DNA from: Halorientalis salina
GTDB taxonomy: Archaea > Halobacteriota > Halobacteria > Halobacteriales > Haloarculaceae
NCBI RefSeq assembly: GCF_005049285.1
Contig: NZ_SOSC01000004.1
Span: 62,001 to 126,000 of the forward strand
Length of the DNA stretch: 64,000 nucleotides
Reading direction: 5' to 3'
Every line of letters begins with the position of its first letter. Within the stretch, counting starts at the first letter, position 1. Below the pieces are notes generated by a model. That model was not told the origin of the DNA. It was given only the letters and a program-made list of their open reading frames with translations, and searched no databases. Below, piece by piece: positions 7,387 to 11,460 of the stretch. The translations under genes and the position numbers were made by a program.

Positions 7387-7524
7387 ATTCGGGGCCAGGG
7401 ACGGCCACCCCTTGTGTTGTGGGATCGAGTGGGCCGTCGGGGCGGTCAACCGAAGTGTTCAATCCGGTCGACGAAGGAGAGTGGGTACGATGACACGTCA
7501 CACACGAAAATCGGAGTGGTCGCG

Positions 7525-8106
7525 ATGAGCGCCGACACGCACGATGTCGACCTCGTCGGCGAGGAAGTCGTCGAGAACGTCGCGCGGGCGGCGCTGTTCG
7601 CGGCGCTGATGGGGGCGTTCGCGTACGTCAGCTTCCCGAACCCGTTCTCGCCGGCACCGGTGACGCTGCAGGTGCTGGGCGTGTTCCTCGCGGGCATCTT
7701 CCTCGGTCCCGTCTGGGGCGGGGCGTCGCTGGTGGTGTACCTGGTCGCCGGCGCGGTCGGGGCACCGGTGTTCAGCGGCGGCGCGGCCGGTCTGGGCCAC
7801 CTCGTCGGCTCGAACGCCGGTTACCTCATCTCCTGGCCCGTCGCCGCGTTCGTCGTGGGGGCCATCGTCCACGGCGGCCTCACGGTCGGTGACCCGCGTG
7901 CGGTCGGGTCGGTTCGGCTCGTCGGCGCGATGGTCCTCGCGACGGCGCTCATCTACGCCTTCGGCATCGCGGGGCTGATGATCGTCCTCGGAATGGGCCC
8001 GGTCGCGGCCTTTACGGCGGGCGCGGCGGCGTTCATCCCGGCCGAGGCGTTCAAGATCGCGGCCGCGGTCGGCATCGTTCGCAGCGACGCCTTCATCGCG
8101 GAATGA
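7525..8106 (+). CDS. bioY: BioY, substrate-binding (S) component of biotin ECF transporter
   Basis: A 193-residue integral membrane protein with about six hydrophobic segments. BioY features are seen: ALFAALMGAFAYVSFP near the N-terminus, PFSPAPVTLQVLGVFLAGIFLGP, and VYLVAGAVGAPVFSGGAAG. BioY binds biotin in the membrane and works with an ATPase pair and a T subunit. The next two genes supply those parts, and the ATGA overlap of four bases with the ATPase gene indicates translational coupling. ATG 7525 is preferred over the long upstream open frame, which has no membrane-protein character. Confidence 0.92.
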   Translation: MSADTHDVDLVGEEVVENVARAALFAALMGAFAYVSFPNPFSPAPVTLQVLGVFLAGIFLGPVWGGASLVVYLVAGAVGAPVFSGGAAGLGHLVGSNAGYLISWPVAAFVVGAIVHGGLTVGDPRAVGSVRLVGAMVLATALIYAFGIAGLMIVLGMGPVAAFTAGAAAFIPAEAFKIAAAVGIVRSDAFIAE

Positions 8107-8801
8107 TCGAGACCCGTGACCTCGTGGCTCGCTACGGGGAGACGGCCGTCCTCGACGGCGTCGATCTCTCTATCGGAGACAGGGAGTTCGTCCTGCTGGT
8201 CGGCCCGAACGGGGCAGGGAAGACGACGCTCGTGCGCCACTTCAACGGCCTCGTCGAACCGGACTCGGGCGACGTGCTCGTCGACGGCCGACCGGTGAGC
8301 GAGGACCTCGTGGCCGCACGCACGACCGTTGGAATGGTGTTCCAGGACCCCCGGGACCAGTTCGTCGCGGCGACAGTCCGCGGCGACGTGGCGTTCGGGC
8401 CGGAGAACCTGGGGCTCGCCCGCGAGGAGATTGACCGCCGAGTGGCCGAGGCGCTCGACACCGTTCGAATGGGCGACCGGGGCGACGACCGCATCGATCG
8501 GCTCTCGGGCGGCGAGCAGGCTCGAGTCGCCATCGCCGGCGCGCTCGCGATGGACCCAGACCACCTCGTGCTGGACGAACCGCTCGCGAGTCTCGACCAG
8601 CCGGCCCGCGAGGCCGTGCTCGACCGCCTCGCCGCGCTCCACGACGGCGGGAAGGGAATCGTCGTCGTCACCCACGACCTCCGGGACCTCGCTGACCTCG
8701 CCGATCGGGTCGTCGTTCTCGCCGATGGAGATGTTGCCCTCGACGGTAATCCAGGGGAAATCCGGGACGAACTGTCGGCGTTCGACGTGCGACCATGCTG
8801 A
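8103..8801 (+). CDS. bioM: ECF transporter ATPase (BioM/EcfA-like)
   Basis: A 232-residue ABC ATPase. The Walker A motif GPNGAGKT is at 34-41, the Q-loop at MVFQDPRDQF, the signature LSGGEQ near 134, Walker B HLVLDEP near 157, and the switch histidine in VTHDLRDLADLA. It resembles CbiO/EcfA proteins rather than classical importers. It would power biotin uptake with BioY and BioN; a single ATPase gene implies a homodimer. The gene overlaps bioY by 4 bases and the T component by 7 bases. Confidence 0.9.
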   Translation: MIETRDLVARYGETAVLDGVDLSIGDREFVLLVGPNGAGKTTLVRHFNGLVEPDSGDVLVDGRPVSEDLVAARTTVGMVFQDPRDQFVAATVRGDVAFGPENLGLAREEIDRRVAEALDTVRMGDRGDDRIDRLSGGEQARVAIAGALAMDPDHLVLDEPLASLDQPAREAVLDRLAALHDGGKGIVVVTHDLRDLADLADRVVVLADGDVALDGNPGEIRDELSAFDVRPC

Positions 8802-9508
8802 AATACGAGCCGGGGTCGACGGTCGTCCACGCGCTGGACCCGCGGACGAAACTGGCCGTGCAGGCGGGATTCGCGGTCGCGGCGTTCGCACACACGACGC
8901 CGCGGGGACTCGCGGTGTTGACCGCGATCGCGCTGGGGTTCGTGGGGGCGGCCCGGCTCTCGCCGCTCGGGACCCTCGTCGAGTTGCGGTTCGTGTTGCC
9001 GATCCTGATCGCTGCACCGCTGTTGGAGGGGTTGACGTTCGGCTGGCCGTGGTTCTCGCTCGCTCAGGCGCGCTTCCCGGCGCTGGCCAGCTATCGCGTC
9101 CTGCTGATCCTGTTCGTGAGCGCGGCGTACGTTCACACGACGCCGACGCGGGAGTCCCGGGCAGCCGTCCAGTGGCTTATCCCGGGCAAGCCCGGCCAGT
9201 TCCTCGGGATGGGCGTCGCCGTGGTCTTCCGGTTCCTGCCGGTGATCGTCGACGATCTGGTGCGGGCGCGGGAGGCGATGCACGCCCGACTCGGGACCGA
9301 GCGACCCCTGGCCGAGCGGATACGGATCGTGGCGACGGCGGGGCTCCGGCGGGTCTTCGCCCGGGCGGACGCGCTCTCGCTGGCGCTTCGGGCCCGGTGT
9401 TTCGCGTGGAACCCGACGCTGCCCCGGCTCTCGCTTGGCTGGTGGGACGTGCCCGGGATGGCGCTGGGTCTCGCGCTGGTCGGGTCGGCGGTCATCGGAA
9501 GCGTGTGA
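8795..9508 (+). CDS. bioN: ECF transporter transmembrane (T) component, BioN/EcfT-like
   Basis: A 237-residue membrane protein starting MLKYEPGSTVVHALDPRTKL, the conserved EcfT opening. Several hydrophobic segments lie between residues 20 and 140. A conserved coupling region follows with arginine-containing short motifs (LVRAREAMHARLG, LSLALRARCF). The T component couples ATP hydrolysis to the S component BioY. Last gene of the three-gene operon; a thioredoxin-like gene follows 46 bases downstream. Confidence 0.88.
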   Translation: MLKYEPGSTVVHALDPRTKLAVQAGFAVAAFAHTTPRGLAVLTAIALGFVGAARLSPLGTLVELRFVLPILIAAPLLEGLTFGWPWFSLAQARFPALASYRVLLILFVSAAYVHTTPTRESRAAVQWLIPGKPGQFLGMGVAVVFRFLPVIVDDLVRAREAMHARLGTERPLAERIRIVATAGLRRVFARADALSLALRARCFAWNPTLPRLSLGWWDVPGMALGLALVGSAVIGSV

Positions 9509-9554: not shown

Positions 9555-9902
9555 ATGAGCGACGATCCCGCGCTGACGGACGCTCGCCCGACGGACCTGG
9601 ACGACGAATCCGACCTCGACGCGTTCGTCGACGAGTCCGACCTCGCACTCGTGGAGTTCTACACGGACGGCTGTACCATCTGCCAGAGTATGGAGCCAGT
9701 GTTGAGCAACGTCGCCCGATCGACAGAGGCGGCGATCGGCCTGATCAACCCGCGCGACGACCCGCCGCTGATCGACCGGTTTCGGGTCCAGAGCGTCCCG
9801 CTGCTCGTCCTGTTCGTCGACGGCGAGCCGGTCGACCGCCGCGCGGAGGGGTTCGTCGGGGCCGACGACCTCGTCTCCTGGATCGAGGAGACTGCCGACT
9901 AG
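9555..9902 (+). CDS. Thioredoxin-family protein with C-T-I-C active site
   Basis: A 115-residue thioredoxin fold with the redox motif C40-T-I-C43 after LALVEFYTDG, the cis-proline in RVQSVPLLVLFVDGE, and a C-terminal helix. The first 27 residues are an acidic extension. CTIC differs from the classical CGPC, so redox potential and partners may differ. The gene follows bioN on the same strand but with its own TATA-like element (CTTACA near 9526). Confidence 0.85.
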   Translation: MSDDPALTDARPTDLDDESDLDAFVDESDLALVEFYTDGCTICQSMEPVLSNVARSTEAAIGLINPRDDPPLIDRFRVQSVPLLVLFVDGEPVDRRAEGFVGADDLVSWIEETAD

Positions 9903-9939
9903 CGATTGGGCGCTCGCAACAATTCTTGCCGGATTTGCG

Positions 9940-9951
9940 ATGATCGATCAT
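9940..9951. promoter_or_regulatory. 12-base palindrome upstream of the microprotein TATA box (A)
   Basis: ATGATCGATCAT is a perfect palindrome lying immediately upstream of the TATA-like TTTATG (9957-9962). The same palindrome occurs at 11257-11268 before the second copy. Its position at the BRE/TATA boundary suits a repressor or activator site. ATG 9990 lies about 30 bases after the TATA box, so the transcript is probably leaderless. Confidence 0.5.
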
Positions 9952-9989
9952 GAAGGTTTATGTGGGTGGCCGGCGACGGTGTAGATACG

Positions 9990-10139
9990 ATGCGTGACGA
10001 AGCGTTCGCACCGACCGTGCCCGAAGTTTCGAGCGAGTCTACCACCAGCCAGCCGGCCATCCGGGCCGACGGCGGCCAGCTCAAACGTTCGGAAGCGGCA
10101 CGCGTAGGCGACGCTCCGATGGTCCCGGACCTCTCCTGA
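9990..10139 (+). CDS. 49-residue microprotein, copy A
   Basis: The frame encodes MRDEAFAPTVPEV, then SSESTTSQPAIRADGGQLKR and SEAARVGDAPMVPDLS. It has no cysteine and no membrane segment, and is rich in Ser, Pro and Ala. Evidence that it is a gene: a TATA box at leaderless distance, and a second copy in which four codon changes are synonymous and only one (F6 to S) alters the protein. No function is recognised. It could be a small regulator, a leader or a secreted peptide; nothing in the sequence decides. Confidence 0.65.
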   Translation: MRDEAFAPTVPEVSSESTTSQPAIRADGGQLKRSEAARVGDAPMVPDLS

Positions 10140-10250
10140 AGCCTGGTTCCGAGACGCGAAGCCTGTTTTCGCCGTAGGTTGCTGGTTTCAATCGTTCGAG
10201 GGACACGCCGTGTCGCGAATCAGAACGTTCTACTGTGCGAGCAGTAACTG

Positions 10251-11213
10251 GTGGCTGTGTACGGGACGATACAGCGCGCCGGATACGTCGCCCTGCTGGT
10301 GACGCCCCTCGCCTTGCTGGTGGCCGCCCTCGGCGACCCGACCGGTGTTTCGGCCGGGAGACTCTCGGTCGAGGGCGGGCTCTTTCTCGCGGCCGGTCTC
10401 ACCGCCGTCGTCGAACGCGAGTACATCGGCGGCCAGCTGGCGGCGTCCGAGTTCACCCACCGTGACGGCCTCGACGTGGCCGCAGTCGTGGCCGGGGCCG
10501 TCGGGACCTACGCGATGAGCGTCCACGCCGGACTCGGTCCGGTCCTGGCCTCGGCTGCCATCGGTCTGGTCGCTGGCGTCGCGCTCCCCGATATCGACGT
10601 CCCCGTCTACTGTGGTTCGTTCGTCGGGATGGTTTCGCCGTCGGTACTGCCGACGGTCGAGCACCTCGCGGTCGCGGCCGTCGTCGCCGGCCTCGCGTTC
10701 GTCGCCGCGACGGAGTCGTTCGGCGGCTTCGGTGGCAAACTCGGCACGCTAGCGCTGTTCGGCTGTCTGGCCGCGGTCGCGCTGCCCGGCGTCACGTTCG
10801 GCACCGGAGCCCCGATTCAGTGGGGCCGCGCCTCCCTGTTCGTCCCGGTGGCCGCCGTCGCCGCCGTGGCGACGGTCGTGCTGAGCGTCCGGTTCGATCT
10901 CGGGGCCGTCGTCGGCTCGGCGCTGGTCGGGCTGGTCGCCGGCGTCGCGTTTCCCGCCCTGTCGCCGGCGGCTGGCGGGACGCTGGCGGCGGTCGCCTTC
11001 TGTGCCTCGTTCGTCGGGATGTCCTCGCCCGACCGACTGACGACCGGCCACGTCGGCCTCGCGGGGGGGCTGTGCGGGCTGGTGTTCGTTCTCGTGTCGC
11101 CCGCCTTCGTCGGGGCCGGCGGGAAACTCGGGACGATCGCGTTCGTCTCTTGTCTCACCGTGGCCGGCGTCACGGAACTGCGCGACACCCTGGCGTCCCG
11201 GACGCCCCTGTGA
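10251..11213 (+). CDS. Polytopic membrane protein with internal duplication
   Basis: A 320-residue very hydrophobic protein with GTG start (10251, or 10257). It contains two related halves. The first, about residues 95-190, reads GLVAGVALP, then SFVGMVSPS, then GGKLGTLALFGC. The second, about 217-310, reads GLVAGVAFP, then SFVGMSSPD, then GGKLGTIAFVSC. Each half seems to hold three to four helices, as in transporters that arose by duplication. The N-terminal 90 residues add two or three helices and lack a counterpart. No family is recognised. The flanking microprotein cassettes suggest a functional or historical link. Confidence 0.75.
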   Translation: MAVYGTIQRAGYVALLVTPLALLVAALGDPTGVSAGRLSVEGGLFLAAGLTAVVEREYIGGQLAASEFTHRDGLDVAAVVAGAVGTYAMSVHAGLGPVLASAAIGLVAGVALPDIDVPVYCGSFVGMVSPSVLPTVEHLAVAAVVAGLAFVAATESFGGFGGKLGTLALFGCLAAVALPGVTFGTGAPIQWGRASLFVPVAAVAAVATVVLSVRFDLGAVVGSALVGLVAGVAFPALSPAAGGTLAAVAFCASFVGMSSPDRLTTGHVGLAGGLCGLVFVLVSPAFVGAGGKLGTIAFVSCLTVAGVTELRDTLASRTPL

Positions 11214-11235
11214 CCGACTCGATCAGCGCCCTCCG

Positions 11236-11460
11236 ACAATTCTTGCCGGATTTACGATGATCGATCATGAAGGTTTATGTGGGTGGCCGGCGACGGTGTA
11301 GATACGATGCGAGACGAAGCGTCTGCACCGACCGTGCCCGAAGTTTCGAGCGAGTCCACCACCAGCCAGCCGGCCATCCGGGCCGACGGCGGCCAGCTCA
11401 AACGTTCGGAAGCGGCACGTGTAGGCGACGCCCCGATGGTCCCGGACCTCTCCTGAAGCC
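11236..11460 (+). repeat. Direct repeat, copy B (225 bp microprotein cassette)
   Basis: Second copy of the segment at 9919-10143. The 71 bases before the start codon differ at a single base, so promoter and palindrome (11257-11268) are preserved. Divergence is higher inside the gene and mostly at third codon positions. Confidence 0.9.
11307..11456 (+). CDS. 49-residue microprotein, copy B
   Basis: Identical in length to copy A and differing by one residue (Ser instead of Phe at position 6). Synonymous differences occur at codons 2, 17, 38 and 42. The TATA-like TTTATG is at the same distance upstream. The longer open frame starting at 11267 in another register is rejected, because copy A has an early stop in that register. 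Confidence 0.65.
   Translation: MRDEASAPTVPEVSSESTTSQPAIRADGGQLKRSEAARVGDAPMVPDLS

Follow-up and report, generated by a model that had tools for sequence, protein, structure and literature searches.

A duplicated 49-residue microprotein in Halorientalis salina belongs to a haloarchaeal family with its own promoter element

The window, a 64,000-nucleotide stretch of the Halorientalis salina genome (C18:62001-126000 of the host assembly, G000), contains two copies of a 225 nt unit on the forward strand, copy A at 9919-10143 and copy B at 11236-11460, which a repeat search of the window and direct comparison found to be 97% identical. Each unit consists of a promoter region and an ORF for a 49-residue microprotein (9990-10139 in copy A and 11307-11456 in copy B, both on the forward strand), and the homology extends from 9919 and 11236 on the left to 4 bases beyond the stop codon on the right. 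Only one of the seven mismatches lies in the 71 nt upstream part (9937), while the six in the gene leave the codons for R2, S17, R38 and A42 silently changed and cause a single replacement, F6S in copy B relative to copy A, through two bases (TTC to TCT). The original prediction had described the same two segments, the four silent changes with the Phe6-to-Ser replacement and the lone upstream difference, and direct comparison recovered all of them at the same coordinates. By a simple binomial with ~24% synonymous sites, P is ~0.013 for at least four of five codon changes being silent. No terminal repeats or target duplications were visible in the flanks of either copy, and the second copy may have arisen by duplication, conversion or insertion.

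Between the copies lies the gene for a 320-aa polytopic membrane protein (10251-11213, forward strand), whose own internal repeat, already pointed out from the letters alone, consists of SFVGM[VS]SP and GGKLGT, each present twice, with 73% identity over 51 nt. Modelled by AlphaFold2 from its own sequence alone, this protein gave a structure of too little confidence (pLDDT 45) to support a fold search. Upstream on the same strand, Pfam and domain searches identified bioY (7516-8106, start approximate), a cbiO-like ATPase gene (8103-8801) and a cbiQ-like gene (8795-9508), together the context of an ECF biotin-type transporter (7516-9508), followed by a thioredoxin-like gene (9555-9902, forward strand; domain search). 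In four other genomes of the host's genus (G075, G078, G079 and G080), bioY, cbiO, cbiQ and the 320-aa gene are contiguous, with neither the thioredoxin gene nor the peptide there, and the thioredoxin orthologue is located elsewhere in these genomes. The window's lineage has the thioredoxin gene and copy A between cbiQ and the membrane protein gene, which by synteny is the last gene of the cluster, and copy B behind it. The peptide and the membrane protein had been suggested to form a peptide-transporter pair, and in this one genome the peptide does flank a polytopic protein. However, the four sister species keep the membrane protein with bioY-cbiO-cbiQ and without the peptide, and the peptide is not always found near a homologue of the 320-aa protein: the two are far apart in other genomes, for instance at 478 kb and 3581 kb in G077. 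Sister-species synteny and dispersed homologues thus rule out the pair as a general arrangement, and we assign it hardly any probability. The BioY-type cluster accounts for the presence of a membrane protein gene here, only the window's lineage has it flanked by the peptide, and the 320-aa protein, judging from gene order, belongs to the transporter cluster and is a bystander, no partner of the peptide. It has no Pfam family or assigned transporter role, and plays no demonstrated part in the function of the microprotein. Separately, the retention of the 320-aa gene directly behind bioY-cbiO-cbiQ in the sister species (L284-L287) raises the possibility that its product is an accessory part of the biotin-type ECF transporter. 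A DUF2267 gene is near the peptide both in the window and in Halorientalis marina, on different sides.

Profile searches recovered 74 strong members of the microprotein family, 45-70 aa in length and usually present in one to five copies per genome. Members occur in 56 of the 146 genomes of the host's taxonomic family (E≤1e-3), and strong matches are rare outside it, where G154 has two. The host genome carries five copies, namely the two in the window and those at C16:280713, C19:186105 and C21:35955, the weakest match of which may be spurious; G121 likewise has about five. Among named relatives that have the peptide, the nearest is H. marina GDY88, whose single copy is 76% identical. Pairwise dN/dS among the strong members rises from 0.15 at 90-100% identity to 0.32 at 60-70%. 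The expectation that the peptide is translated and selected, originally drawn from the excess of silent changes, is therefore borne out by homologues in many haloarchaea and by dN/dS values of 0.15-0.32. Purifying selection acts on the product, and the microprotein is almost certainly a real protein-coding family. The original prediction named no described system with this layout; in agreement, sequence searches of Pfam, NCBIfam, PHROG and PDB with the peptide gave no credible match and no matching family, a plasmid collection contained no match, and the titles and abstracts listed by literature searches on small proteins of haloarchaea and on MinD in archaea do not describe the family. Copies A and B are duplicates of one member of this family, which is undescribed as far as these searches extend; clearly defined and under selection, it joins the many small genes of haloarchaea that have no assigned function. 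Another local duplication is seen in G077, of the host's genus, where two members stand in tandem ~330 bp apart (C1:3536680 and 3537011; L182).

The strong members share three near-invariant motifs, an N-terminal P-x-V-P, a central DGG and a C-terminal V-P, and most of them end in [DE]APLVPDL[SR]. The N-terminal P-[LM]-V-P resembles the near-identical C-terminal A-P-[LM]-V-P-D, so that one kind of motif appears at both ends. AlphaFold2 modelled the peptide from three close sequences as an extended polypeptide whose only secondary structure is a single helical turn (pTM 0.13), and both motif ends scored higher than the middle. The microprotein is thus predicted to have no stable fold of its own, although this evidence for disorder is weak because the alignment of three sequences is shallow. 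Haloarchaeal u-proteins (<70 aa), which include C(P)XCG zinc-finger proteins such as HVO_0758 (PMC10716476, PMC11241148), share with the microprotein their size class, their haloarchaeal hosts and their many paralogues. In contrast to the zinc-finger members, the window peptide has PxVP, DGG and PLVPD as its own motifs and no cysteine pairs or zinc finger; the absence of any cysteine from both window copies rules out this class. Ubiquitin-like SAMP proteins have a beta-grasp fold and a C-terminal GG. The microprotein is not of this type, since its DGG is internal, its C-terminus is S, R or similar, and no strands are predicted. The small size, the several paralogues per genome and the variable middle would suit a secreted or modified peptide, such as a pheromone, a halocin-like peptide or a RiPP precursor. 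But the sequence has no hydrophobic signal sequence, both ends are conserved with no variable core at one end, and reading and clustering of the neighbourhoods of ~60 members revealed no recurrent exporter or modification genes; we rejected a RiPP precursor on the last ground and consider secretion or modification in general improbable. A longer subfamily of ~60-90 aa (L174, L179, L180, L181, L186, L187 and L188) has the form ..RPPETDYA..EEIEPLVPDLR. Its genes are preceded by long upstream regions that share a further conserved sequence, approximately GATGCTCGCTGTACGCGTACGCnACTGATTCT, which may be a 5′ leader element.

The upstream regions of the two copies contain a family-specific promoter element, ATCATGAAGGTTTAT in copy A (9947-9961) and its counterpart in copy B (11264-11278), both on the forward strand and located by genome motif searches. 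The pattern ATCATKAANRTTTA has exactly four sites in the 3.66-Mb host genome, and all four are immediately upstream of family genes. When relaxed to ATCATKA-N2-3-TTTAW and searched in 15 genomes, it gave 30 sites versus two for the pattern read backward, and 25 of the 30 precede family members. Two of these 25 (L258 and L261, the former apparently degenerate) were missed by the protein profile and recognised by reading downstream of the motif. The core CATKA-N2-3-TTWA is present within 120 nt in 49 of the 74 strong members versus 0.8% of random stretches. This figure is descriptive, since the pattern was drawn from the family members themselves, and the counts over whole genomes test the association better. 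The element is close to exclusive to this family, and each gene carries its own promoter region; the promoter proposed by the original prediction from the two copies has turned out to be a genome-wide signature of the family, a stronger result than the window could have provided. Reading of the upstream regions also identified the palindrome GCAACAATTCTTGC (9916-9929) ~74 nt 5′ of the copy A start, a longer-spaced version of the GCA-N5-TGC palindrome found at about -70 in many members, whose left half is lacking in copy B because it falls outside the repeat. Since a TATA-like TTTAT lies ~30 nt upstream of the ATG, leaderless transcription of copies A and B is plausible, and it fits the g15 members as well. 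In several Halorientalis paralogues the element is 53-64 nt from the ATG, and a short leader is therefore likely in those. Because the signature is so specific that it picks out members overlooked by the protein profile, a one-family regulon is directly testable. Dispersed copies that carry their promoter along, and repeat boundaries in the window that coincide with the functional unit, might also be expected of a mobile mini-cassette of gene and promoter propagating itself in the manner of a selfish element. This is very improbable in our judgement, as the gene neighbourhood of some orthologous copies is the same in different species, the protein is under selection, copy number is low, and the copy ends show none of the terminal repeats or target duplications looked for.

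The commonest conserved neighbour of ~60 members is a MinD/ParA ATPase gene. The peptide and minD genes are divergently oriented, their starts 109-159 bp apart, in 15 genomes of three genera (12 of g15, two of g9 and one of g21), among which the 12 g15 cases are not independent because these genomes are related. In four g6 genomes, two g7 genomes and G131, the two genes have the same orientation and are 3.5-6 kb apart. Searched across 392 genomes, the neighbouring MinD has exactly one strong match in each of 235; against the archaeal MinD model TIGR01969 it scores 191.6 bits (E 1.3e-56), just missing the curated cut-off of 201.75. A conserved ORF of no assigned function follows minD in most cases. 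This order resembles that of the Haloferax minD2 locus HVO_0595-HVO_0596, where a conserved ORF without assigned function comes after minD, and MinD2 organises cell shape, motility and CetZ1 (PMC11588486, PMC11621097); the neighbouring ATPase is, by this analogy, probably a MinD2 orthologue. The divergent microprotein is described here only in Haloarculaceae-level relatives, and the consulted portions of the two Haloferax reports do not mention it (PMC11588486, PMC11621097). The minD gene is also present in many genomes without the peptide. In Halorientalis, the genus of the window, no peptide copy is beside minD and several copies are dispersed, and the host assembly contains no orthologue of this minD (best match 39%). 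As the other Halorientalis genomes searched do have the orthologue, its absence from the host reflects either true loss of the gene or a gap in the assembly. Other copies of the peptide have as neighbours genes named by reading as cobO-like, SDR, AAA ATPase, truD, ABC transporter and NYN domain, and the link to MinD is therefore suggestive but not general.

These observations are consistent with a regulator or adaptor role of the peptide, which is possible. Our tentatively favoured account is that the microprotein is a disordered, two-headed docking peptide, whose two similar motifs would engage a single partner twice or link two different ones, or else would compete for a two-site partner, and whose amount would be set by the dedicated transcription signal. 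In the window's lineage, the 320-aa gene of the transporter cluster would have ended up between two copies. A function of another kind, such as regulating transcription or translation specifically under stress or in one growth phase, with the copies forming one regulon and the minD site merely ancestral, is a considerable possibility that we regard as somewhat doubtful: the private promoter implies one shared expression condition and, outside g15, g9 and g21, most copies have no adjacent minD, yet three genera retain the minD arrangement although the neighbours of other copies differ. For the docking peptide, the original partner may, with less assurance, have been the machinery of the conserved MinD-type ATPase, and we consider a partnership with MinD unlikely on gene order as it stands.

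MinE binds MinD and stimulates its ATPase. The microprotein resembles MinE and other small bacterial partners of MinD as a small protein beside a MinD ATPase gene in several genera, the partner role being hypothetical here. It differs from MinE in lacking sequence similarity and a predicted MinD-binding helix and in being divergent rather than operonic, and Pfam scans of 11 and 30 members gave no match to the MinE family (for A1 no Pfam family at all reached E≤5, and for A2 none was credible). In the part of PMC11621097 consulted, no clear MinE equivalent is identified for archaeal MinD2. Because of this gap and of the gene position, MinD-dependent organisation is the leading candidate for the process served by the peptide, and members of the family are candidate partners of archaeal MinD2. 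That its members are the missing small partners of MinD2, which would couple MinD to CetZ or the polar machinery, MinE-like but unrelated and dosed by their promoter, is a rather unlikely, specific version of this idea. The CetZ-like proteins of the host have tails ending in DELDPLF, DIEPLF or DLDDLF (L201, L207, L211 and L214), which loosely resemble the microprotein motifs; the likeness of an N-terminal DEIEPLVP to DELDPLF and DIEPLF is too short to score and is only a lead. The tails of FtsZ2 in the same set of host loci, DGG..GLDVIR, show a similarly loose resemblance to these motifs.
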